A stretch of DNA of 64,000 nucleotides from a bacterium (lineage in GTDB: Bacteria; Eisenbacteria; RBG-16-71-46; CAIMUX01), in NCBI GenBank assembly GCA_030431975.1, contig JAUIHP010000003.1:293925-357924 (forward strand). The letters run 5' to 3'. Positions 45,575-63,383 of the stretch are shown here, piece after piece. Every line of letters starts with the position of its first letter. The stretch's first letter is position 1. The position numbers and the translations under genes are program-made. The notes under the pieces are model-generated. The model ran no database searches. It saw nothing but the letters and a program-made list of their open reading frames with translations, and was not told the DNA's origin.

Positions 45575-47878
45575 TTATCTGGTGACTCGGACGACCTTGA
45601 TCTCCTGTCCCTCGTTTCCCCGGGCCCAATACACCCCTGCGGGGACCGTTCTTCCCCGGGCGTCCGTGAAGTCCCAGTCGGCCTTGGTTTCACCGTCTTC
45701 AAATCGAGTCCAGGTTTCACTGATGCGTCGACCGCGCGCGTCGAAGATTGCGACAGGAAGGGAAGAACCGTCCTTTCCAGGATCGCTCGTCGGTCCCAGG
45801 TGAAGGGTGACGTGTCCGTTGGCCGGATTGGGTACGGCCCGCAGGTCGAGAACGACGGGGGGCGCGTCCGGGACGATCGCACGAGCGATGAGATTGCGCG
45901 TCATGGTTTGAACGACCGGATCGTCCGCCAGTCCCCAGCACCAACCCGTCGTTCCGCCATTGAAGACAAAGGAGCGCTCCGTTTCCCGAATGGCGACGAG
46001 TGCGTTCCCGGTCGCGGTTTCATCGTAGGCATTCCAGCATTCGCTCATGCCGAGCAGCTGGAACTCGGAAGGGTTTCCACTGGGGTCGAGGATGATGGGC
46101 GCACCGGGCGAGTCGGGGTCCTTTCGCAGGGGAGCGCCGTCGACTTCGTATCCTGCGATGGCATAGTCCTGTCCGAAGACGGCACCGTTCTGAACCCCGG
46201 TTCCTTCGAAGATCCAGTGGTCCTCGTTGTGGCTACAGAAACCACCGTACCCGAGCAACCAGTCGTAGTCGCATGGGCAGTCCGACCGGGTCGACCAGTT
46301 GACCATTCCTCCGTGGCGCCAGCTCGTTCCCAGCAACTCCGCTCCCGAGCGGTTGACGGGTTCCGAGTCCCACCAGTTGGTAACGCGGGACGGGTCGATG
46401 TTTTGATACGGGTCTTGGCCGAACCGGTACTTGTAGCAGACGAGTCGCTCTCCGGTCCCGGGCTCCACCGGGTCGTCGGCATCGACGAGGCGAGTTTGCC
46501 ACCAGCAGGTGTTTCCGCTGAAAGAAAGGAGCGAGCCTCCGTCGGCGACGAATGATTCGACGTTGGATCGCATCTCACCCGTCCAGTACTCGCTGTGCCA
46601 GGTCAAAACGACGGCATCGTACTGCTTCAGCCATTCTCCCCGGCGATGCAGGTCGAAATCGTCGGCCGTCCCGAACGGGATGCCTTCCCGATGTAGCCAG
46701 CGGACGAGGTGAACCGGCGTGTGATAGAAACCCCAGTAGCCGTGGCTGTTCGGGCGCTCGAAACTGACCTCTGCCGTCGGAGGCGAGGTGTAAAAGCTCG
46801 CGCCTCCCCAGCGGTTGTAGGCCTGGTCTGTGTGGCTGGGAAGCACCACGAGAAGTTTGGCCTCGGGGACTCGTTCGCGTACGACGAAGGTGTCCCATTT
46901 TCGCTGGTATCCGTCGTCGACCTTGACCGTGTAGACCCCACTCTTCCAGTGAGTCGGGATGGAAATGCGATGACTGACCGGCCAGCCGCAGCCGTTCCGC
47001 CACGGTTCTTCCCGCGTCGGAGGGAGGGTCAGTCCGCCCAACTCGACGGGTCCGTAGACCAGGCGTGGCCGATCTTCCTCGGACCACACTTCTACCGTGG
47101 CCTGTCCGTCAGGGGCAGAGATATGCACATCGATAGTCTCTCCCGAGGTAACCGAGGTCGGCTTTGCATAGAACTCCAGAGGCTCGACCTCCTGACCACC
47201 TCGAATCTCGAAGTCGTCGAGCCAGAAGCGCCCGGCGCGGAGGACCTTCGAATAGGAGAGACCAAACGTGACCCAGCAGAATCCGGGGGCATCCCCGGCG
47301 GACGGGTTGAAGGAGACGGTGAACTCCCGAGGTTCGCTCATGTCCTCGCCGACCAATTGCAGCAGGGGTTCGCCATGAATCCAGGTGCCGTCCAACGCTT
47401 TGTAGACGACCTCGACCTGAAACGGAGAGTCGGGCTGTTCGATCTGCAGCTTGAAGCTCAGCGTGTAGTCACGATTCATGGCCGGCAGGAAGATGTTGGG
47501 TGCGGCGATCCGGTAGTTGAGTGTTCGCAACGGGAGATCGGCCCGTATTGACGGAGCTTCCATCCCGTGGACCGTCGTATCGCGGTAGGTGTCGAAGAAG
47601 GGTCGGTGTGCGACCGGACCCGTCGACCATCCGCGAGGGAGGCCGGTCCTGGCATCCGCATTGGTGAAGTCTTCGGTATGGATGACCTCGCCGGCCATCA
47701 CCGTTGGGCAGATCGCCGCCACGGCGAGGAACGAGCCAAGGACCGAGCCAAGCACCGAGCCAAGCACCGAGCCAAGCACCGAGCCCAGGAGAAGTCGACG
47801 AAGGCCGGTTGCTCGTTGCGAGTCGGCAGAAGGGTTCGAGGCCGGCGAAAGCGACGGGACGAAACTCTTTGGGATCAA
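45575..47878 (-). CDS. Secreted protein with DMFase-beta-like domain and sorting tail
   Basis: 767 residues. The signal peptide core consists of LGSV repeated from 12-bp DNA repeats, then FLAVAAICPTVMAGE. A jelly-roll-like domain (about 75-200) follows. The central part resembles the C-terminal domain of N,N-dimethylformamidase beta subunits: HLVRWLHREGIPFGTADDFD, YDAVVLTWHSEYWTGEMRSN, FVADGGSLLSFSGNTCWWQT. The last ~85 residues (LRAVPNPANGHVTLHLG, IFDARGRRISETW, VPAGVYWARGNEG) are a FlgD-Ig/sorting-type tail. The start is uncertain: TTG 47878 has GGAG 9 nt upstream. An amidase role is only suggested by similarity. Confidence 0.75.
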   Translation of the reverse strand: MIPKSFVPSLSPASNPSADSQRATGLRRLLLGSVLGSVLGSVLGSVLGSFLAVAAICPTVMAGEVIHTEDFTNADARTGLPRGWSTGPVAHRPFFDTYRDTTVHGMEAPSIRADLPLRTLNYRIAAPNIFLPAMNRDYTLSFKLQIEQPDSPFQVEVVYKALDGTWIHGEPLLQLVGEDMSEPREFTVSFNPSAGDAPGFCWVTFGLSYSKVLRAGRFWLDDFEIRGGQEVEPLEFYAKPTSVTSGETIDVHISAPDGQATVEVWSEEDRPRLVYGPVELGGLTLPPTREEPWRNGCGWPVSHRISIPTHWKSGVYTVKVDDGYQRKWDTFVVRERVPEAKLLVVLPSHTDQAYNRWGGASFYTSPPTAEVSFERPNSHGYWGFYHTPVHLVRWLHREGIPFGTADDFDLHRRGEWLKQYDAVVLTWHSEYWTGEMRSNVESFVADGGSLLSFSGNTCWWQTRLVDADDPVEPGTGERLVCYKYRFGQDPYQNIDPSRVTNWWDSEPVNRSGAELLGTSWRHGGMVNWSTRSDCPCDYDWLLGYGGFCSHNEDHWIFEGTGVQNGAVFGQDYAIAGYEVDGAPLRKDPDSPGAPIILDPSGNPSEFQLLGMSECWNAYDETATGNALVAIRETERSFVFNGGTTGWCWGLADDPVVQTMTRNLIARAIVPDAPPVVLDLRAVPNPANGHVTLHLGPTSDPGKDGSSLPVAIFDARGRRISETWTRFEDGETKADWDFTDARGRTVPAGVYWARGNEGQEIKVVRVTR
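47729..47788 (-). repeat. 12-bp tandem repeat (x5) inside a signal peptide
   Basis: Plus-strand units CACCGAGCCAAG (five copies) read on the minus strand as codons for L-G-S-V. They form the hydrophobic core of the signal peptide of the DMFase-like protein. Confidence 0.9.
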
Positions 47879-48079
47879 CGCGTGAATCTCCGTTGGTTGG
47901 ACAGAAGGTTCTCTCGAAAACTCGATGAGTACGGCGGGGAGCCGAGTTCTGACTACCAACGGTTCGCTAGGCGGGCCTTTCGCGGGTCGGGTGACCGAAC
48001 AACCTACGGAGTTTCAGTAGGACGACCAATAATCAAGAGTGTAGGGAAAAGGTCTACCGAAGTTCAATACCTCACTGGC

Positions 48080-48225: not shown

Positions 48226-49278
48226 TTACTTCAATCGCACCACTCGAGTGGCATAGTCAAAGCCGCCTGCCTGCATCTTCACCCAGTAGACGCCTGCCGA
48301 CAGAGCGTGACCTGCGTCGTCCGTTCCGTCCCAGACGACTTCGTGCGCTCCCGCATCCCACGGGCCGTCCGCGATCGTTCGGACGCGGCGCCCGGCGGCG
48401 TCGAAGACGCGAACGTCGACCTCTCCGGACTCGGCAAGCCGGAAGGCAAGCGTCGTTCGCGGATTGAACGGGTTTGGACGAGCGGGTTGCAGCGAGGTTG
48501 CAAGAACCTCGGATCCCCCGCCGTTCGGCGGAGTTCCCGAGTCGGTGCTCGTGCACGGGTTCTCGCACAGGCCGGGTAGGTTGCCCACTCCGTAGATCCA
48601 CTCCAGGGCGGAGCGGAGCTCGTTCGCTGCGGCCTCGATGATTCGGGCCTCGGACGGTAGGCATTCGTCGACTGGATCGACGCTCGAAAGCAGGTGATAG
48701 GACACGCCGTCCAGGATCGTGCGGTAGTTGTCGGTCGTCAGGTCTTCACTGACGATCTGGGCGAACTGGGTCTCACTGCCGAGGTTGTCGACGCGGGCGT
48801 AGACACGGTTGCCGACGCCTGGACCGGCCGCCCCCAGGACGTCGAAGCTGTATTTGATCGGGCACCAATTGCCGAACGCATCATACTCGTAGTCGCCGGT
48901 GGAGTTGGCCGTGCCGTAGAGTTCCCCGCCGGCTGCGGGAGCTTCGATCCGAACACAGTAGGCTTCGTCCCCCGAGTAGTCGGCGTACCGGTCGTCGAGA
49001 TGTATCGCCCCGATCTGGGTCAGCAACGCAGCCGCCTGCACCTTCATGGTGTTGGCGATCCCGTTCCCGTTCAGGATGAGGCCTTGCCGGGTTGTCATTC
49101 CTTCACAAATGTCGGCGGACAGCCAGTCCGAGAACATCATGTAGTCCTCGGGATAAAGCATCGAAGAGATGTTGGACGTTCCGGTGTTGAGGAGGATTCC
49201 CCGGTATCCCAGGAGCTGTCCGAGCGTGCAACCGTTGTTGGCGAATTCTGAGGCCCCCCGGGCCATCGGAGCTCGCCA
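48226..49278 (-). CDS. 3' part of the TGA-interrupted secreted protein (FlgD-Ig tail)
   Basis: The 350 codons after the in-frame TGA continue the upstream reading frame with no shift (WRAPMARGASEF, GCTLGQLLGYRGILLNTGTS, YMMFSDWLSADICEG). They end in a FlgD-Ig/sorting domain: ARPNPFNPRTTLAFRLAESG, VRVFDAAGRRVRTIADGPW, LSAGVYWVKMQAGGFDYATR. The first ATG in this frame is at 49266; it has no ribosome site, and the part has no signal peptide of its own. An independent gene is therefore unlikely. It should be read as the C-terminal third of one ~1080-residue protein, either by UGA read-through or Sec insertion, or as the remnant left by a nonsense mutation. Confidence 0.8.
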   Translation of the reverse strand, partial: WRAPMARGASEFANNGCTLGQLLGYRGILLNTGTSNISSMLYPEDYMMFSDWLSADICEGMTTRQGLILNGNGIANTMKVQAAALLTQIGAIHLDDRYADYSGDEAYCVRIEAPAAGGELYGTANSTGDYEYDAFGNWCPIKYSFDVLGAAGPGVGNRVYARVDNLGSETQFAQIVSEDLTTDNYRTILDGVSYHLLSSVDPVDECLPSEARIIEAAANELRSALEWIYGVGNLPGLCENPCTSTDSGTPPNGGGSEVLATSLQPARPNPFNPRTTLAFRLAESGEVDVRVFDAAGRRVRTIADGPWDAGAHEVVWDGTDDAGHALSAGVYWVKMQAGGFDYATRVVRLK

Positions 49279-49281
49279 TCA
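49239..49281 (-). promoter_or_regulatory. In-frame TGA plus SECIS-like hairpin
   Basis: The TGA (49281-49279) is followed by 11 nt, then GA, an unpaired T, GGCCC, loop GGG, GGGCC and TC: an upper stem-loop with a bulged U. An outer 6-bp stem TGGCGA / TCGCCA (49278-49273 with 49244-49239) closes it. As I recall it, the E. coli fdhF SECIS also has 11 nt between UGA and the upper stem, a bulged U and a G-containing apical loop. High GC makes chance hairpins common. Confidence 0.4.
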
Positions 49282-51468
49282 GGAACTGGCATCTAAAGCG
49301 TCGAACCGGTCGAAGTCGACCTCCAGCGACTCCAAGGCTTTTTCGATGTAGTACTCCGCGCCGGCATTGAAAGCGTCCACGTAAAGGAAGCACGGATACT
49401 TCAGTACCCCGCCATCGTCCCGCCATCGCGGAAGAATCTCGAATTCGAGCGAGAACCCACCGGATGTGTCCGGCAGCAGAAAGCTCTGTGAGCTTCCGAT
49501 GAAGTTGCTGCTGACGAAGTAGTCGACCTGGGTCCCCGGGAAGAGAACGCCGTCAGCGATGATCTCGTTCGCTTCGGTGAGTTCTCCAGATCCGTCGTCG
49601 AAGTCGTCGTCGTCCTCCCTGAAATAGGAGACGAACTTGTTGTTCGCCGTGTTCGTGCCGACTTGGAACGAGTCCATGAAGGCGAACGTCCACTCCGCGT
49701 TCTCGCCGTCGATGGTCCTTCCGTCAGCTACCTTGTCCCGCCACGTGGTGTAGCGGGAGTCAGCGGCCGGCCCGATGTTTGGAATGCGGAACCACAGCTT
49801 TGCCTCCCACTGGGTCTCGGGGTCGCTTCCGGCGAGTGGACCTGAGACGTAAAGCGAGTCACCGAGAATGATCGGGGGTGTGGGCCCAAAGTTGCGGCTG
49901 CGGGTTACATCCGCATTGCCGGGCATCGTCGGGTCATTGACTTGCGTCCCTTGGGCAAAACCGTCCTGGAAACGGAGGCCGTTGTCGAAGCTGATCGGAG
50001 GAGCGATGGCCACCTTGGTCACGCGGATCGTGATGTTATCGATCAGGGGAGTGAAGTTCGTCTGGTCCGTGCAGACGGATTCCGAGATGGAGAAGGCATC
50101 ACACGAGGAATAGATCTCATAGATGAACCGTACCTGCTCGGCGTCCGGAGGGACCGGCACGTCCGCAGACGTCGCGGAGTTGATGTTTTCGGTGCAGGCG
50201 GGATCTTCCCCCACGAAGGAGAAGCTGTTCTGTCCGACACGTCCCGACCAGGACTGGGCTCCGGTCAGTTCGCAGGTGAAGGGATAGTAGTCCCACCCCG
50301 GCCGGTAGAACACCCCGTTGGCTTGGGGCAGGATGCTGTACTGCGACCATCGCGCAAAGATAGTGGTCAAACCGGGGCCCGGAAGCTGCGCGTCGTTGGC
50401 CAGGTCCACCGGACCGGACCGCGCCTCGACACGAGTTCCGTACTTCTGTTCATCGTCGTCGTCATGGAACTTCAGGACATTGCCCGCCAGTTCGCAGGTG
50501 CAGGCGTAGGCGTCCTCGATGACGTAGTTACTCACGGGCACGGCGTCGAGATAAGTGCCGTTTCCGGGACACGCCTCCGCCGTCCACCCATCCAGACCAG
50601 CTTCGAAGGTGCTGAGCGTTCCATCGACGGAAACATCGTCGAAGCCGCAGGCGCCGTAGTCGGTCGAATAACGCGCATCCTCGTCCGACCATCCGCCGTC
50701 TGAAGTGACTTCAAAGACGATGCGGTACCCGGATTCGCCGGCGAAATCGGCTGCGGTGAGCGTTTCCGAGTCGGTCACGCCCACCGGAGGTGAGTCCGGA
50801 TGGTCCGGGGCCAGGCCGATTTCACCGTCGTACCGTCTCAGTTCCGTGCGGTTGCCGCTCGGTTCGGTAACCAGGTATACGGAGGTGAAGTCGAAGTTGG
50901 GTTCGGTCTCGTTGAAGTGGACCCAGCTGAGGTCGACATCACTCGTTCCGTCGTGCGTGAAGAGCGGACTGACCAACCGCTGGCACCAGGTGTTGCCGTA
51001 GCCGACGCCGGCTTCCCAGCAGAGCTCCGCGGCTTCCGTTCCGGTCGCTCCACACCATGCAGAGCCGAGGCCGGAAAGAACTGGCGCGGCGAGGTCGTGC
51101 TCCGGGTCCGCGTCCCAACCCGAGTCGTCGACGCGACGGAAGTAGACCCCGATCTGATCGGTGATGTCCGTCGCATACCAGCCTTCGAGCGGGTCGGATC
51201 CTCCGTTGTCGAACGTCCACTTTCCTCCCAGCACGGCAAAGCCGTCCTCGTCGATGTACCCGAACGAAAGCGTGTCCGCCGCAACGCGGGACTGGACCAC
51301 TCCCTGGGGATGATTCGGTGGATAGTCGTGCAGGTTGTCGCCGATCTGCGGCGCCAGCATGTCCAGAGGAGGATCGGGCTCCCTGGCTTCTACCAATGTG
51401 GACATCAGCAGAAGACACGAGCCCATCCCCAGGACCCCAGTCAGGGTCAAGGTCGTTCGGATGGTCAT
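49279..51468 (-). CDS. 5' part of a large secreted protein ending at an in-frame TGA
   Basis: 729 residues to the TGA. Signal peptide: TIRTTLTLTGVLGMGSCLLL with cleavage near VEA. The mature part is Asp/Gly-rich and beta-rich with MAM/jelly-roll-like segments (GFDDVSVDGTLSTFEAGLDG, SYRIVFEV-like YRIVFEVTSDGG) and several Cys pairs. It approaches the TGA with FLYVDAFNAGAEYYIEKALE, then LEVDFDRFDALDASS, a Rossmann- or protease-like strand pattern that continues after the stop (LGQLLGYRGILLNTG). It is transcribed alone on the minus strand. I do not recognise a named family. An extracellular hydrolase or surface protein is plausible. Confidence 0.78.
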   Translation of the reverse strand: MTIRTTLTLTGVLGMGSCLLLMSTLVEAREPDPPLDMLAPQIGDNLHDYPPNHPQGVVQSRVAADTLSFGYIDEDGFAVLGGKWTFDNGGSDPLEGWYATDITDQIGVYFRRVDDSGWDADPEHDLAAPVLSGLGSAWCGATGTEAAELCWEAGVGYGNTWCQRLVSPLFTHDGTSDVDLSWVHFNETEPNFDFTSVYLVTEPSGNRTELRRYDGEIGLAPDHPDSPPVGVTDSETLTAADFAGESGYRIVFEVTSDGGWSDEDARYSTDYGACGFDDVSVDGTLSTFEAGLDGWTAEACPGNGTYLDAVPVSNYVIEDAYACTCELAGNVLKFHDDDDEQKYGTRVEARSGPVDLANDAQLPGPGLTTIFARWSQYSILPQANGVFYRPGWDYYPFTCELTGAQSWSGRVGQNSFSFVGEDPACTENINSATSADVPVPPDAEQVRFIYEIYSSCDAFSISESVCTDQTNFTPLIDNITIRVTKVAIAPPISFDNGLRFQDGFAQGTQVNDPTMPGNADVTRSRNFGPTPPIILGDSLYVSGPLAGSDPETQWEAKLWFRIPNIGPAADSRYTTWRDKVADGRTIDGENAEWTFAFMDSFQVGTNTANNKFVSYFREDDDDFDDGSGELTEANEIIADGVLFPGTQVDYFVSSNFIGSSQSFLLPDTSGGFSLEFEILPRWRDDGGVLKYPCFLYVDAFNAGAEYYIEKALESLEVDFDRFDALDASS

Positions 51469-56860: not shown

Positions 56861-59800
56861 GTGAACGACTCGATCGACAAAGCCGAAGCGGCGTATTGGA
56901 CGATACGGGAGATGTCTCCTGAGGAGCAGGCGGAGGCCCTCCTGCAGTTGGCGGCGGAAGACAGCGAAACCGCACGGATCGTGCGGGACCTTCTTCGGAC
57001 GGAAAGCCGGGATACCGGGCAGGCGTTGCAACCCGGCAGCGCCTGGTCAGCTGAATCTGAACTCGACCCAGACCTCGACCCCGACCTCGACCCAGACCCT
57101 GACCCCGACCCAGAATCTCTTCCGTTCGATTTCGAAGTCGGCCAGCACCTCGGTCCCTACGTCATTCAAGCGGAGATCGGACGTGGCGGAATGGGTGTCG
57201 TCTACTCCGCGCGTGACACGCGGCTGCAACGCGACGTTGCCCTGAAGGTCCTACCCTCTGGAGCCGGCACCGAAAAGCAGCGTGCGCGAGTCGAACACGA
57301 AGCCCGCGCTTTGGCCTCACTCAACCACCCCAACATTGCCACCGTCTATTCGCTGGAAGAACACTCGGGTGCGCGCTTCTTTACGACGGAACTCATCGAC
57401 GGGAAGAGTGTCCGGTTGTTGCTCGGCCCAGGTCCGCTTCCTCTGGAACGGACTCTGGACATCGCAATGGGCGTCGTCGACGGACTAAACGCGGCTCACA
57501 CGGCCGGCCTCGTTCATCGGGATCTCAAACCGGACAACGTCATGGTCACCTCGGACCACGAGGTGAAAATCCTCGACTTCGGAATCGCCACTTTGCGCGG
57601 ACATGGGCCGGACAAGGGTGCGGCCGGGACTCCCGGATACATGAGCCCGGAGCAGGTCGCCGGAAAGGATCCCGATCCCGCCATGGACATTTGGGGTTTG
57701 GGTTGTCTGCTCTTCGAATGTCTTAGCGGCGAGCCGCCGTTCCTCGGCTCCACCGAAACGAACCGCCTGCGGGGCAGCCTCGCCGCGGACGTCGATTGGC
57801 GCAGGCTCCCGGTCGCCATTCCCGAGGGCTTGAGAGCGGCCCTCGAACTGGCGCTCCAGAGAGATCCCGAGTCGAGACCGGATGTCCATGACATTTCGCT
57901 CCTGCTGGCTGAGGCCGCCGGCCGGGATGCCGGCAAGACGGGGCGAGATCGCGACCAGGTTGGAAACTTGCGGCCGGGGAAGAATCGTTTTGTCGGCCGG
58001 GTTCGGGAGCTCATGGAGCTCGACCGAATTTTGCGTGAAGGGCAGGTCGTGACTCTCGTCGGCTTGGGCGGAAGCGGCAAGACCCGGTGCGCACACGAGT
58101 ATGCATTGAGAAGACGAGGCCGATACCGCGACGGCGTATGGATCGTCGACCTGTCCTCTTCCGATGAAGTTGGCGTCGGGACGGTCGTGGCCCGCGCCCT
58201 GGGTGTCACCGAAGCGGCTGGGATGTCGATGGACGAGACACTTCGCGGCCATCTCCAAAACTCTGAACGTCTGTTGGTGCTGGACAACTGTGACCTACGA
58301 TTGGCCGAAGTGCAGCAGTTCGTCGAGGAGGTTGTTCCAGTGAGTCGGGAGCTCCGACTCCTTCTCACCTCCCGTTCGGTCGTGGGTGCTTCGCAAGAGT
58401 TCGTTCTTCCTTTGGGACCGCTTCCGGTTCCGTCTGCCCCCGCCGTCACGGCGGCAGAAATCGCCGGGAAGGATTGCGTGCGGCTCTTCGTGCAAAGAGC
58501 CTCCGAGCGGGATGCTGATTTCGTTCTCGACGACGGCAACGCAGCGGATGTCGCAGAGATCTGTCGCTTGGTCGAAGGGATCCCACTTGCCGTCGAACTG
58601 GCGGCGGCGAGAGTTGAAACGTTGACGCCGTCCGAGATACGGAAGCGACTGGGTGATCGACTTCGGCTCCTCTCTCGTGGTGACGCAGAGGCGAAGCGCC
58701 ACCGGTCTCTGCGAGCGGCCCTCGATTGGAGCTACGAGCTTTTGTCGGAGCCGGAGCGGCAGGTCTTGCGCCGCCTCTCCGTCTTTCGCGGAGGGTGGAG
58801 CTTGGATGCGGCAGAGTTCGTCTGTGAGGGCGATGCTGTCGCACGGGAAGACGTTCTCGACCTGATCTCAGACCTGCAGAATAAATCATGGGTCGCCGCT
58901 TCCGTGGGTTCCGGATCGGCGGGATACGCACGTTCCGGTCTGTTGGAAACCGTCAGGGAATACGCTGCAGCCCGACTGGATGCGGAAGAAGACGACCGTT
59001 TGTCGACGCGCCGCCATCGAGAATGGTGTTTTCGCTTTTCGAGAGAGGCGGAGTCGATCTTGGCCGCGGACCCCGGCTCCGGAGGACGGGATCCCGCCGC
59101 GGTGTTGCGGGAGGCCTCGGCCAACCTCGAAAACTGCCGAGTCGCAGCTCACGAAGCCGTGGCCGACGGTGATCCTGTCGTTGGGCTGGACATCGCGGGA
59201 TACCTGGCCCCGATTTGTTACCGGCTTGGATTGTGGACGGAAGGCCGCGAGCTTTCTCTTCGGCTGCTGTCGGACACTCTGCCGGCGGACACGCAGCGCG
59301 ACGGACTTGGAGATGACGACCACCCCGACGAGATCCGCGACCTGGCCCACTCCCGAGTTCGCCTGCGCGCGTGGGCCGGACACTTCGCGTTCAATCAGGG
59401 CGACTTGAAGGACGCTGAAACCGAATTCACGTACTGTCGATCGGAGTACGAACGCTTAGGGAATCTCAAGGAGCAGAGCAACATCCTTCGGGCTCTCGGA
59501 GGCGTCGAGCAACACCGAGGGAGCTACGACAAGGCGTTGGAGTTTCATCGGGCGGCGTTGTCCGCAGCCGAAGAGGTCGGCGACCCGCAGGGCATCGCCG
59601 GAGCCCTGAGCGAAATCGGCTCGACGTTGCTTTTTCTCTGGGAGTTCGAGGAAGCGCGTTCCTGCCTGGAGCGGGCGTTGGGACTGTCGCGCGCGACCCT
59701 CAATGACCTCGCGACCGCAACGCTGGTCAGCAACCTCGGTGGGGTGTCATTTCGGTTGAAGGACTTTGAGTCGGCGTTGCAGTACTACGACGAAGGGCTC

Positions 59801-60235
59801 TCTCTTTGCGAGGCCGTGGGAAACAAGCGGGGAGTTGCCGTGGCCCGGCTCAATCTCGCCTCAGCCCACTTGGCGCTGCAGAATGTGGAAGCGGCGAAGG
59901 CTGAGGCCGAGGAAGGACTGCGCCTGGCCGTGATCATCGGCAATCGCCTCTATCTTCCGGATGGACTACGAATCCTTGCGGCGGTTTCCGCCGAGCTTGG
60001 ACACGAGGACGATGCGGTGAGGATTCTGGCGGCCGCCGAGAGCGCGAGCCGGGAGATGGAGCTGAATCCTGCCGAGGCCGAGCGCGCGGAATCGGAGGAC
60101 CTGGCCGGGCGACTGCGCGATCGCCTCGGAGCGCCCAGGTTTGAAGGCCTTTGGGGCCGGGGCTCTCGGGCAGGGCTCGGAATTCTCGAGGAATTGGGAC
60201 TCGCCGCAGGACAAAGTCCATCGGCCCAGAGCTGA
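56861..60235 (+). CDS. Ser/Thr kinase - AAA/NB-ARC-like ATPase - TPR protein
   Basis: 1124 residues. Residues 1-65 are a helical stretch, then an acidic DPDLDP linker (12-bp repeats 57065-57112). The protein kinase domain (about 95-350) has GRGGMGVVYSARD, ALKVL with the ATP Lys, HRDLKPDNVM near 218, DFGIATL and GTPGYMSPEQVA. An ATPase domain follows with P-loop VTLVGLGGSGKTRCAHEY near 400 and LLVLDNCDLRLAEVQQF (Walker B-like), then a winged-helix region (RSLRAALDWSYELLSEPERQ). The last ~250 residues are TPRs (SYDKALEFHRAALSAAEEVG, FESALQYYDEGLSLCEAVGN). No membrane helix. It looks like a cytosolic signal-integration protein. Start GTG 56861 has a weak ribosome site. Confidence 0.9.
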   Translation: MNDSIDKAEAAYWTIREMSPEEQAEALLQLAAEDSETARIVRDLLRTESRDTGQALQPGSAWSAESELDPDLDPDLDPDPDPDPESLPFDFEVGQHLGPYVIQAEIGRGGMGVVYSARDTRLQRDVALKVLPSGAGTEKQRARVEHEARALASLNHPNIATVYSLEEHSGARFFTTELIDGKSVRLLLGPGPLPLERTLDIAMGVVDGLNAAHTAGLVHRDLKPDNVMVTSDHEVKILDFGIATLRGHGPDKGAAGTPGYMSPEQVAGKDPDPAMDIWGLGCLLFECLSGEPPFLGSTETNRLRGSLAADVDWRRLPVAIPEGLRAALELALQRDPESRPDVHDISLLLAEAAGRDAGKTGRDRDQVGNLRPGKNRFVGRVRELMELDRILREGQVVTLVGLGGSGKTRCAHEYALRRRGRYRDGVWIVDLSSSDEVGVGTVVARALGVTEAAGMSMDETLRGHLQNSERLLVLDNCDLRLAEVQQFVEEVVPVSRELRLLLTSRSVVGASQEFVLPLGPLPVPSAPAVTAAEIAGKDCVRLFVQRASERDADFVLDDGNAADVAEICRLVEGIPLAVELAAARVETLTPSEIRKRLGDRLRLLSRGDAEAKRHRSLRAALDWSYELLSEPERQVLRRLSVFRGGWSLDAAEFVCEGDAVAREDVLDLISDLQNKSWVAASVGSGSAGYARSGLLETVREYAAARLDAEEDDRLSTRRHREWCFRFSREAESILAADPGSGGRDPAAVLREASANLENCRVAAHEAVADGDPVVGLDIAGYLAPICYRLGLWTEGRELSLRLLSDTLPADTQRDGLGDDDHPDEIRDLAHSRVRLRAWAGHFAFNQGDLKDAETEFTYCRSEYERLGNLKEQSNILRALGGVEQHRGSYDKALEFHRAALSAAEEVGDPQGIAGALSEIGSTLLFLWEFEEARSCLERALGLSRATLNDLATATLVSNLGGVSFRLKDFESALQYYDEGLSLCEAVGNKRGVAVARLNLASAHLALQNVEAAKAEAEEGLRLAVIIGNRLYLPDGLRILAAVSAELGHEDDAVRILAAAESASREMELNPAEAERAESEDLAGRLRDRLGAPRFEGLWGRGSRAGLGILEELGLAAGQSPSAQS
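57065..57112 (+). repeat. 12-bp tandem repeat (x4) in kinase gene
   Basis: Four copies of GACCCAGACCTC / GACCCCGACCTC encode an acidic DPDLDPDLDP linker just ahead of the kinase domain. Confidence 0.85.
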
Positions 60236-60336: not shown

Positions 60337-61350
60337 TTGAGCCCGATCCGATCCACCGTATTCCATTTCCGCGCGTTCCTTCTTGCCCTCGGTTTTCTGG
60401 CCGGCCTGCAGTCGGCGACGATCGTGGCTGCCGCGGAAACTCAGTCTCCGGTCGCGACGTTTTCATTCGTCGCACATGATCCTGAATCCGGAATCTCCGG
60501 CGTGATCGTCGCCTCCAAGTTTTTTGCTGTCGGTTCCGTGGTGCCCTGGGCCAACGCCGGGGCCGGCGCCATCGCGACTCAGGCCCACGCCAACACCACA
60601 TTCGGACCCAAGGGCATCGAGTTGTTGACCGCGGGGAAGAACGCTTCCGAGACTCTCGCCGCGCTTCTCGAAGACGACGAAGGGCGGGAAAGTCGCCAGG
60701 TCGGCATCGTGGATGAATACGGCGGATCCGCGACCCACACCGGCAAAGAATGCATGGACTGGGCGGGAGGACGTTCCGGCCCCGGGTGGGCCGCCCAGGG
60801 CAACATCCTGACCGGTCCCGAGGTCGTCGACCAAATGGCGGAGTCCTTTCAGTCAACGGCGGGAGAGTTCCTTGGAGATCGACTGATGGCCGCTCTGGAA
60901 GCCGGCGACGCTGCGGGCGGAGACAGCCGGGGCCGCCAGTCCGCAGCCCTTTACCTGGTGGCCGAGGGGAAAGGCTACGCCGGCTTCAACGACATTCTCT
61001 GCGACATTCGGGTCGATGATCACGCAGACCCGATCGCAGAGTTGCGACGTGTTTACAATGTCTGGCTCCCGAACCACCTGATCTACGAAGGATACCGGCT
61101 GGTCGAGGAGGGCATGTTCGAAGAGGCCATCCGACAGGGACGTCGAGCCGCCGAGCTCGATCCGGACTCCGGAGAGCCTTACTACCATTTGGCTTGCTAC
61201 TATTCCCGATCCGGTGACGCCGGTCAGGCCATGCACTATCTTGGCTGGGCGGTGGAGCTGAATTCGGATCTGAAGAAGCAGGCAAAGACCGATCCGGACC
61301 TCGGGCCTCTCCGCCATCGTTCCGATTGGTCGACGATCGTTTCCAACTGA
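60337..61350 (+). CDS. Secreted DUF1028 (Ntn-hydrolase-like) protein with TPR tail
   Basis: 337 residues from the proposed start. A signal peptide (TVFHFRAFLLALGFLAGLQS, cleavage near AAA) is followed by TFSFVAHDPESGISGVIVAS, GSVVPWANAGAGAIATQAHA and HTGKECMDWAGGRSGPGWAA, all typical of DUF1028. Its fold is Ntn-hydrolase-like and its substrate unknown. The C-terminal ~90 residues are TPR-like (LVEEGMFEEAIRQGRRAAEL, EPYYHLACYYSRSGDAGQAM). The start is uncertain: TTG 60337 gives a normal signal peptide with AAGGGA upstream, while TTG 60259 would add 26 residues. Confidence 0.78.
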   Translation: MSPIRSTVFHFRAFLLALGFLAGLQSATIVAAAETQSPVATFSFVAHDPESGISGVIVASKFFAVGSVVPWANAGAGAIATQAHANTTFGPKGIELLTAGKNASETLAALLEDDEGRESRQVGIVDEYGGSATHTGKECMDWAGGRSGPGWAAQGNILTGPEVVDQMAESFQSTAGEFLGDRLMAALEAGDAAGGDSRGRQSAALYLVAEGKGYAGFNDILCDIRVDDHADPIAELRRVYNVWLPNHLIYEGYRLVEEGMFEEAIRQGRRAAELDPDSGEPYYHLACYYSRSGDAGQAMHYLGWAVELNSDLKKQAKTDPDLGPLRHRSDWSTIVSN

Positions 61351-61382
61351 ACCGCTCCGCGAACCGAAGGAGAAATCGAATC

Positions 61383-62249
61383 ATGCAAATCGTCGACAAA
61401 GGAAGTCTGACCTTCGGTCACAGCCCGGATCCGGACGATGCCTACATGTTTTACGGGTTCGCCCAGGATGAAGTACACGTCGAGGTCGACTCCGGAGGCG
61501 AGACGCATCGATGGAAGGTCGAGCATCTACTCGAAGATATCCAGTCGCTCAATGAGCGTGCGTTGAAGGGTGAGCTCGAGATCACGGCCATCTCTGCGCA
61601 CGCCTATCCGCACGTCGCCGAGAACTATCATGTGATGCGCACCGGCGTTTCCATGGGGGATGGCTACGGCCCGATCATCGTGACCCGTGAGCCTTGCACG
61701 CTCGAGGAACTCAAAGGCAAGAAGATCGCGATCCCCGGGAAGATGACCACGGCCAATCTCGTGCTCAATCTCTACCTTCCGGATCACCAGCCGGTGAACG
61801 TCTTCTTCGATCAGATCCAGAAAGCCGTTCGCGACGGCGAGGTCGACGCCGGTGTCCTCATTCACGAGGGACAGCTGACGTATGCTGCAGACGGCGTGCA
61901 GAAGATCGCCGACCTCGGCGTCATGTGGCAGGAAGAAACCGGGCTTCCTCTGCCGCTCGGTCTCGATGTCGTTCGCAAGGACCTTGGAGAAGATGTTGGG
62001 GCCGCCTGCACACGCGCCCTTCGCGCCTCGATCGAGTACGCGCGCAAGCACCACGAAGCCGCCATGACCTACGCCCTCGACTACGGCCGAGGCCTCGATA
62101 TGTCCCTGGGCGACCGGTTCGTCGGCATGTACGTCAACGACTGGACGGTCGACATGGGCGACAAGGGTGAGGCGGCGCTTCGGACACTGCTCGAGCGGGG
62201 TGCGAAAGCCGGGCTCATTCCCAAGGTGCCGGATTTGAAGTTGGTGTAG
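61383..62249 (+). CDS. mqnD: 1,4-dihydroxy-6-naphthoate synthase
   Basis: 288 residues, periplasmic-binding-protein fold but cytosolic. It converts cyclic dehypoxanthinyl futalosine to 1,4-dihydroxy-6-naphthoate in the futalosine route to menaquinone. Conserved: LTFGHSPDPDDAYMFYGF, EITAISAHAYPHVAENYHVM, KGKKIAIPGKMTTANLVLNL, VDAGVLIHEGQLTYA (His) and GLPLPLGLDVVRKDLGED. The start at ATG 61383 has GGAG upstream. It faces mqnC with only 12 bp between the stops. Confidence 0.93.
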   Translation: MQIVDKGSLTFGHSPDPDDAYMFYGFAQDEVHVEVDSGGETHRWKVEHLLEDIQSLNERALKGELEITAISAHAYPHVAENYHVMRTGVSMGDGYGPIIVTREPCTLEELKGKKIAIPGKMTTANLVLNLYLPDHQPVNVFFDQIQKAVRDGEVDAGVLIHEGQLTYAADGVQKIADLGVMWQEETGLPLPLGLDVVRKDLGEDVGAACTRALRASIEYARKHHEAAMTYALDYGRGLDMSLGDRFVGMYVNDWTVDMGDKGEAALRTLLERGAKAGLIPKVPDLKLV

Positions 62250-62261
62250 GTCTTTCGACGG

Positions 62262-63383
62262 TCAGACTGCGGGCTGAGCCGTTTCGAATCTCCGAAGCCG
62301 CTCATAGAGCGTCGTCCGCTGTACCGGCACGAATCCCGCCTCCTCGATCAGAAGCTTCGTCTCTTCGACGGTTGTCTTGTTGTCGTGACCGGTTGCGAGG
62401 TGAACGTTTTCCTCGAAGAGGGTCCCCCCGAAGTCGTCGGCTCCGAAGTTGAGAGCGACGACCCCGGTCTTCTTACCCTCACTGAACCAGGTCGCCTGGA
62501 CGTGGTCGAAGTTGTCGAGGAAGAGTCGGGACGCGGCAAGGATGCGAAGGTACTGCGCCGCGCCCGCCGGCTTGCGCCCGGACTCTTCGACATACTTCTG
62601 CATCGGTGTGTTCCCACGCTTGTAGGACCACGGAACGAAAGCGGTGAAGCCGTGATGCAAGTCCTGCAGCTCACGAATGTGATTCCAGTGCTCGACGATG
62701 TCTTCCGGTTCTTCGATGTGGCCGTACATCATCGTGGCGGTCGACTTCATTCCGAGTTCGTGCGCTTCACGGTGAACCTGGATCCAGGTGTCGACGCCGC
62801 CCTTCTTGGCTGCGACCTTCATTCTTACGCGGTCACTGAGGATCTCGGCGCCGCCTCCGGGAAGGGAGTACTGCCCCGCAGCCCGAAGTTTCTCCAGGAC
62901 TTCGCGGGTCGTCAGGTCCGAGGCCTTCGCCATCGTGTGGATCTCGGAAGCGGTGAAGAAGTGGGGAGTCACTTCGGGGTACCGCCGAAGCGATTCGGTG
63001 ACCAGATCGATGTAGAACTGGAGAGGGATCTCAGGATTGTGGCCGCCCTGCAGTAGGACCGTCGTCGCACCGTCCCGGGCGGCGTTTCCGACCTTCTCCA
63101 TCACCTCTTCGACAGTGAGCGTGTAGCCCTCGGCGTGACCGGGCTTGCGGTAGAAGGCGCAGAACGCGCAGTCGGTGACGCAGATGTTCGTGTAGTTCGG
63201 ATTGGAGTCGATGACGAAGGTCACTTCATCCGCCGGACTCTTGCAATTCCGCACCTCGACGGCGAATCTACCCAGGTCGGTGAGGGGCGCCTCCGTCAGC
63301 ATGAAGATCCCGTCGGAATCATCCAGACGTTCGTTCGCCTGGAGTTTGTCAGCGATCCGGGCCAGTGCGCGCGCAGCGGTCAT
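62262..63383 (-). CDS. mqnC: Cyclic dehypoxanthinyl futalosine synthase, radical SAM
   Basis: 373 residues. It cyclises dehypoxanthinyl futalosine, the step just before MqnD. The [4Fe-4S]/SAM motif CVTDCAFCAFYR (CxxxCxxC) follows VIDSNPNYTNI, as in MqnC rather than MqnE. TTVLLQGGHNPEIPLQFYID, AAGQYSLPGGGAEILSDRVR and FVPWSYKRGNTPMQKYVEE are further family stretches. Start at 63383. It is on the opposite strand to mqnD with a 12-bp gap, so the two steps are not in one operon here. Confidence 0.93.
   Translation of the reverse strand: MTAARALARIADKLQANERLDDSDGIFMLTEAPLTDLGRFAVEVRNCKSPADEVTFVIDSNPNYTNICVTDCAFCAFYRKPGHAEGYTLTVEEVMEKVGNAARDGATTVLLQGGHNPEIPLQFYIDLVTESLRRYPEVTPHFFTASEIHTMAKASDLTTREVLEKLRAAGQYSLPGGGAEILSDRVRMKVAAKKGGVDTWIQVHREAHELGMKSTATMMYGHIEEPEDIVEHWNHIRELQDLHHGFTAFVPWSYKRGNTPMQKYVEESGRKPAGAAQYLRILAASRLFLDNFDHVQATWFSEGKKTGVVALNFGADDFGGTLFEENVHLATGHDNKTTVEETKLLIEEAGFVPVQRTTLYERLRRFETAQPAV

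Follow-up and report, generated by a model that had tools for sequence, protein, structure and literature searches.

An in-frame TGA followed by a SECIS-like hairpin is probably read as selenocysteine in a predicted exported protein of an Eisenbacteria genome

The closest described counterparts of the hairpin reported here are the SECIS elements of the E. coli formate dehydrogenase genes. In fdnG and fdoG, the UGA is followed by an upper stem that begins at position 15 (counting from the U of UGA, as for all hairpin positions below), with a bulged U17, five pairs and a triloop that starts at G23. The fdhF SECIS is of the same design and also has the bulged U17. More generally, bacterial SECIS elements have been modeled as hairpins with an apical loop of 3-9 nt, a stem of 4-16 bp, a G in loop position 1 or 2, a UGA-to-loop distance of 16-37 nt and a minimum free energy (MFE) of -7.5 or lower (PMC13188914). 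Table 1 of the same source gives the motif UxxK for the Sec-containing loop of SelD, and the motif GxUxG for NF004836, a CTP synthase C-terminal region-related selenoprotein (glutamine amidotransferase). The exchange of Cys and Sec has been the main route to the discovery of prokaryotic selenoproteins (PMC13188914, PMC12013277). Proteins with a FlgD-Ig tail and T9SS type A cargo (TIGR04183) carry a C-terminal sorting tail.

Here we describe a gene in a 64,000-nucleotide stretch of Eisenbacteria DNA, which we call the window, that resembles T9SS type A cargo in its sorting tail and differs from it in that the tail lies downstream of an in-frame UGA. With a probability of roughly 0.8, we take the TGA at 49281-49279 to encode selenocysteine, the gene product being a predicted export substrate of T9SS type. 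Selenocysteine is the best reading because of the machinery encoded in the genome, the constraint on the downstream part, the hairpin and, above all, a stop position that is shared with other proteins. The features of the locus are as follows.

48226..51468, minus strand: gene for a predicted exported protein, 1080 codons, with one in-frame TGA; the undecoded product has 729 aa
49282..51468, minus strand: residues 1-729, upstream of the TGA; the structure model shows mainly beta strands
49279..49281, minus strand: in-frame TGA, codon 730, likely selenocysteine; four other database proteins end one residue before it
49239..49278, minus strand: SECIS-like hairpin with, in the computed fold, an outer 7 bp, 2 bp, 2 bp, bulged U17, 5 bp and triloop GGG
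48589..49404, minus strand: alpha/beta domain, about residues 689-960, class I glutamine amidotransferase/ThuA-like (model m2b8637674045, Foldseek, VIA-align)
48226..48477, minus strand: C-terminal FlgD-Ig / T9SS type A sorting tail, about residues 998-1080 (PF13860, TIGR04183)

As originally predicted, the frame opens on the minus strand with the ATG at 51468, runs for 729 codons to the TGA at 49281-49279 and continues without a shift for 350 codons, through a FlgD-Ig tail, to the TAA at 48228-48226; both the open reading frame and the PF13860 match confirm this. The TGA is the only one in the frame, and the alignment with uninterrupted relatives of about 1,060-1,150 aa spans the whole product of 48226..51468. 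Bacterial selenoproteins are recognized by an in-frame UGA that is flanked on both sides by an intact, conserved frame, and this gene has that feature. Residues 1-729 match no Pfam family above cut-off, and ARAGORN found zero tRNA genes in the 64-kb window. The homologs that carry an organism name, and nine loci from further genome contigs, belong to Candidatus Eisenbacteria. The genome that contains the TGA gene (6.19 Mb in 59 contigs, 97% complete) holds eleven copies of the protein, the TGA gene included. Four of the eleven stand close together on one strand of contig C22, at about 238384-255748 (L035, L037, L033 and L034), a group that resembles a locally expanding array.

The neighborhood of the TGA has features that would suit a plain nonsense mutation, or a base or assembly error, in one of these eleven copies; the gene would then be a young pseudogene or really intact, and the hairpin would come from GC-rich codons. 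While the codons after the TGA are good for the downstream part overall, as first noted, this does not extend to codons 722-741, which form the worst-adapted 20-codon stretch of the gene and include a TTA with a share of 0.004 among Leu codons. The codons and residues immediately before the TGA also differ from those of the paralogs, and a conserved Gly is replaced there (Gly716 to Glu), which is what a decaying or misassembled patch might show. Moreover, a stray in-frame TGA at a Trp position is known in the genome of a relative (G016). We consider mutation or error unlikely in view of the results on shared stops, paralog codons and constraint that are given below. The stray TGA of the relative is the only one in the frame of its gene (L104, G016:C116) and lies in the N-terminal part, where the adjacent copy has Trp; we rejected it as an instance of site 730 because its position is different, and it is likely a plain stop or an error.

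The original prediction called for a search of the genome for selA, selB, selC and selD, with the absence of selB and selC to be counted against it. All four were detected above curated cut-offs, with scores of 493.7 bits for selA, 344 bits for selB (366.5 when the neighbor in frame is included), 373.2 bits for selD and 70.7 bits for tRNA-Sec (cut-off 47). The selD gene itself has one TGA inside and reads MVTCAG-TGA-ASKLAPEDL at that point, indicating that the organism very likely decodes UGA as Sec independently of the gene described here. Since a complete Sec system explains the codon, we set aside a changed genetic code as a reading of the TGA. Across the phylum, selD is present above cut-off in 41 of 47 genomes and has a TGA within it in 29 of those 41; in the eight loci that we read, the TGA always stands at CAG/SAG-TGA-A. 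Sec seems to be common across the phylum. Some phylum genomes have SelD within a long frame of 743-892 aa; at L122, L124 and L125, this frame has GCACK in place of Sec. In G007 and G010, a long SelD frame that lacks a TGA occurs alongside a short one that contains a TGA. A search of the TGA gene's own genome for a Sec formate dehydrogenase as a second selenoprotein gave six matches, none with a TGA and none above cut-off.

Downstream of the TGA come 11 nt and then GA-(U)-GGCCC, the loop GGG (positions 23-25) and GGGCC-UC. The spacing of 11 nt, the bulged U, the GGG loop and the upper pairs all agree with the hairpin first proposed, and the outer stem, put at 6 bp in that proposal, is 7 bp long (UGGCGAG/UUCGCCA) and is followed by an inner 2 bp. 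As controls, fdhF, fdnG and fdoG DNA of E. coli K-12 was folded alike. The computed fold of fdnG and fdoG at positions 15-32 equals that of the window pair for pair, with the same seven pairs, the single bulged U17 and the triloop from G23. The fdhF geometry that had been invoked for this locus is matched in the upper fold of fdnG and fdoG, whereas the computed fold of fdhF differs. Under the same folding program, both fdhF and the genome's own selD show 0 of the 7 fdnG pairs, indicating that the exact fdnG geometry is not required for Sec generally. SelD (TIGR00476) is like the TGA gene in having an in-frame TGA in the same genome, and in several of its relatives the stem closes a small loop with GG, but its fold lacks the bulged U and is differently spaced. 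The window hairpin also departs from those of the E. coli formate dehydrogenases: its loop is GGG and theirs GUC, it is far more stable, its lower part is more fully paired, and the SelB in question is from another phylum. We know of no relation between the product of the TGA gene and the E. coli formate dehydrogenases as proteins.

The window hairpin agrees with the bacterial SECIS model outlined above, having a loop of 3 nt, G23, a UGA-to-loop distance of 19 nt, a stem of 16 bp over the whole interrupted stem and an MFE of -22.3 kcal/mol, but the filter is a weak one, as 31% of 7,936 codon positions pass a similar criterion (loop of at most 14 nt, any energy). The 43-nt fold from the TGA has -22.6 kcal/mol (z -2.55) and was equaled in stability by 2 of 200 shuffles; equal stability was reached at 17 of the 7,936 codon positions, which come from 12 window ORFs. 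When 70 nt are folded, the structure does not stand out (z -1.14; 31 of 200 shuffles equally stable). We derived the pair mask from fdnG, itself a control, when its match with the window had already been noticed, so a small factor for this choice has to be allowed in reading the following counts: the seven fdnG pairs occur at 17 of 127,914 window positions (both strands), at 6 positions if U17 is added and at 4 if a G at 23 or 24 is added as well, and among the 1,511 TGA triplets of the window only codon 730 is followed by the fdnG upper pairs.

When the peptide WRAPMARGASEFAN was held fixed and codons were drawn by usage, the same pairs arose in 730 of 20,000 draws (3.7%) and equal stability in 1,277 of 20,000 (6.4%). 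The amino acids thus account for much of the hairpin, whose weight as evidence is moderate, and the 3.7% is a point in favor of mutation or error. We also compared 45 distinct homologous DNA sites, drawn from paralogs in the same genome, phylum genomes and loci from further genome contigs. The seven pairs are present at one of these, namely the TGA-bearing one; each of the remaining 44 lacks a TGA and forms between 0 and 4 of the 7 pairs. Relative to five paralogs in its own genome, the TGA gene has Arg (CGA) in place of Lys after the Trp, plus a rare TCA codon, and both take part in the pairing. A two-sequence covariance model run over the whole genome returned the window's own site only and no further hairpins, as expected of an overfitted model.

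The strongest evidence for selenocysteine is the stop position that four relatives share with the window gene. We searched with the 550-residue piece that ends at the TGA, and proteins of 0.55-1.75 times the query length were returned, a length range that excludes most full-length relatives and shows shortened ones. All 25 proteins retrieved were mapped on the window protein, and five of them end at residue 729: the locus's own P0018 and four others, P0242 (...DYNDASS), P0251 (...DYLDVSS), P0252 (...DYLDAAS) and P0253 (...DYQDASS), which are known here from protein sequences alone. The remaining 20 have other end points; many reach the normal C-terminus, and some are named 'partial'. Four proteins that stop exactly at this site are not explained by a merely variable position, and the same stop residue in all of them argues against a mutation or error peculiar to the window gene. 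Their genes may combine a TGA with a SECIS. The DNA of P0242 was absent from the viral contigs searched. No other stop at the site was seen among the matches listed for the 47 phylum genomes, 17 of which match, and those of nine further contig loci that cross the site by tblastn have no TGA there.

The converse search, with the 350 residues after the TGA as query, retrieved 209 proteins, of which the best 120 were taken and 29 mapped. Among the matches listed, P0131, P0133, P0134, P0136 and P0143 start at residues 735-747, besides the locus's own P0121; the start of P0131 is possibly a contig edge. The aligner used to map ends misplaced some of them, including those of P0137, P0138 and P0246; P0137, whose start was so affected, begins just downstream of the site and reads MGAYNPGGYGNNGCTLEQLLGYR. 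The contig assigned to P0137 has 17,734 bases, as have those of P0252 and of P0107, an uninterrupted paralog, so that P0137 would be the downstream half of P0252; for both P0242 and P0028 the contig has 73,500 bases. From these equal sizes, which are no proof, stop-bearing and sense copies seem to share one genome. The downstream halves of P0242, P0251 and P0253 were not among the matches listed, for which the 8,000 candidates with the most shared words were scored.

Proteins that begin shortly after the TGA raise the idea of a split gene, with two polypeptides that assemble and the second made from the in-frame ATG at 49266, 12 nt past the TGA. An ORF does run over 48226-49266, and the database protein P0121 starts there. 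Such a break, however, would cut the alpha/beta domain after its second strand and would fall within a DASS-x-WxAPMxR-like motif that is common in homologs. In addition, the second part would have no N-terminal signal-like stretch, yet its C-terminal tail is an export signal. We give a split gene very little credence.

We examined the residue that homologs have at position 730, where Cys or Sec would favor the original prediction and random residues would not. Among the best 120 of 930 homologs, 117 have a residue at the site (Asn in 61, Cys in 20, Ser in 19, Gly in 11, His in 2, Pro in 2, Tyr in 1 and Trp in 1) and three, P0018 among them, have a gap. Cys homologs at the Sec position, another mark of selenoproteins, therefore exist (20 of the 117 listed), though Asn is commoner and the residues vary, so the expectation is borne out only in part. 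The site is unusually changeable between Asn, Cys, Ser and Gly. In 15 of the 20 Cys rows a further Cys stands two residues earlier, where the window protein has Ser and the stop-ended rows have Ser or Ala; these CxC rows suggest that a disulfide or a metal-binding pair may be present in some copies. In the paralogs of the same genome the place of residue 730 is mostly Asn or Ser, and in some homologs it is the second Cys of CxC. The paralog codons at the site are AAC, AGT, AGC, GGA and GTG. From the Asn and Ser codons, more than one base change is needed to reach TGA, which argues against a plain nonsense mutation.

For the part before the site, we built a tree of 112 rows with SH-aLRT support, in which rows with fewer than 350 residues there and rows past the first 112 were omitted. 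The residue classes together require 39 changes on this tree. Stop-ended rows occur at three places, with P0242 at one, P0251 at another and P0252 together with P0253 at the third, the latter two places being near each other; the window gene has a fourth. Stop-ended rows and window gene need at least four changes, so that Sec would have been either gained several times or lost very often.

If the TGA had destroyed the gene, the part behind it might be expected to decay. We found that it does not: in residues 746-1000, none of the 46 highly conserved columns (at least 90% agreement among 46 close homologs) is broken in the TGA gene, compared with 0 to 11 in the 46 other rows. Elsewhere in the TGA gene, broken columns number 7 of 149 in residues 60-704, 1 of 8 in residues 705-745 and 2 of 19 in the tail. 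Likewise, the mean ratio of downstream to upstream dN is 1.44 in the five pairs that include the TGA gene and 1.46 in the ten pairs of uninterrupted paralogs, five of the ten paralogs in the genome having been used. Synonymous sites are near saturation, so dN/dS carries little information. The protein past the TGA is as constrained as its uninterrupted paralogs, and the gene is not decaying downstream, a result that again speaks against mutation or error.

In model m2b8637674045, residue 730 lies in the loop after the second strand of the alpha/beta domain, and residues of about 689-960 have the alpha/beta fold of class I glutamine amidotransferases. The likely nucleophile elbow, LILNGNG at 797-803, which was placed by eye and not by superposition, has no Cys. 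The full-length model gave low-TM matches only against the PDB, over beta domains. NF004836 is similar in being amidotransferase-like by name and in having one Sec, but its GxUxG probably resembles the nucleophile elbow, whereas the protein described here is large and exported and would have its Sec in a different loop; NF004836 was not among the NCBIfam matches of the two halves of the window protein (E 0.1).

As for export, the N-terminus has by eye a hydrophobic, signal-like stretch. The tail matches PF13860 (FlgD-Ig) with 52.1 bits (cut-off 27) and TIGR04183 (T9SS type A) with 23.8 bits against an NCBIfam cut-off of 23, while Pfam PF18962 stayed below cut-off (17.7 versus 27). The sorting tail joins this protein only if the TGA is decoded. 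When the genome was searched with the half that bears the tail, 150 of 317 candidates were scored, giving 150 matches that lie mostly in the tail region alone; a large exported proteome is predicted from these tail matches. The next long ORF downstream on the same strand (45575-47959) has a DMFA2_C domain and a sorting-tail match below cut-off; its product is possibly a second exported protein.

Under the selenocysteine reading, SelB would bind the hairpin after the UGA and deliver Sec-tRNA to it, so that the organism's own SelA, SelB and tRNA-Sec would decode the TGA and yield the 1080-residue predicted exported protein instead of the 729-residue fragment. Ribosomes that are not so served would stop at the UGA and release a fragment without the sorting tail, and the complete protein, guided by its tail, would leave the cell by a type IX-like secretion route. 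Residue 730 might then act as a redox or metal-binding selenol, which is the least certain of these steps, and the Sec form would be one specialized copy among the eleven in the genome. The original prediction had also raised a read-through switch that decides on the sorting tail. This may arise as a side effect of incomplete decoding; nothing that we found favors regulation.

Leaky or regulated read-through could also proceed by way of a near-cognate tRNA (Trp or Cys) that acts at a low rate and doses the tail-bearing protein. The stop does precede the sorting tail, so that the two products would differ in export, and hairpins after stop codons can promote read-through. Such a process, however, has no need of the selenium genes, all of which are present, nor of a hairpin that equals the fdnG SECIS position by position, and most relatives of the same design have a sense codon at the site. 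We regard read-through without selenocysteine as highly improbable. The extracellular selenoprotein first proposed for this locus is instead favored by the sel genes, the hairpin, the downstream constraint and the four proteins that end at residue 729.

Compared by name only, this family does not appear in a table, published in 2026 (PMC13188914), that names 119 families and subfamilies of prokaryotic selenoproteins, and no family name in that table suggests T9SS cargo. NCBIfam (E 0.1) returned no selenoprotein family for the two halves of the window protein or for P0001, P0252, P0137 and P0242, and our literature search found no selenoprotein report tied to Eisenbacteria or to a C-terminal sorting domain, co-mentions of FlgD being judged unrelated. 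The mechanism is already known, whereas the family, its export and its frequent interchange with Asn would be new. More tentatively, and at somewhat less than even odds, we propose that one loop position in a large exported Eisenbacteria family switches repeatedly between Asn, Ser, Gly, Cys and selenocysteine, with UGA and SECIS gained independently in several lineages while sister copies keep Asn or Ser. If true, this would be an extracellular selenoprotein family that gains Sec repeatedly and mostly from residues other than Cys, contrary to the usual rule, by which Sec is exchanged with Cys. A family with Asn as the commonest replacement could escape searches that require Cys at the site. 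It would further give an example of a selenoprotein that is exported and probably bound to the surface, and extend selenium use beyond the usual enzymes in a candidate phylum.

Elsewhere in the window, 56861-60235 encodes a protein of 1124 aa in which protein kinase, NB-ARC and TPR domains are combined, and 61326-63383 holds adjoining menaquinone-synthesis-type genes (VitK2_biosynth; CofH/MqnC radical SAM) on opposite strands.
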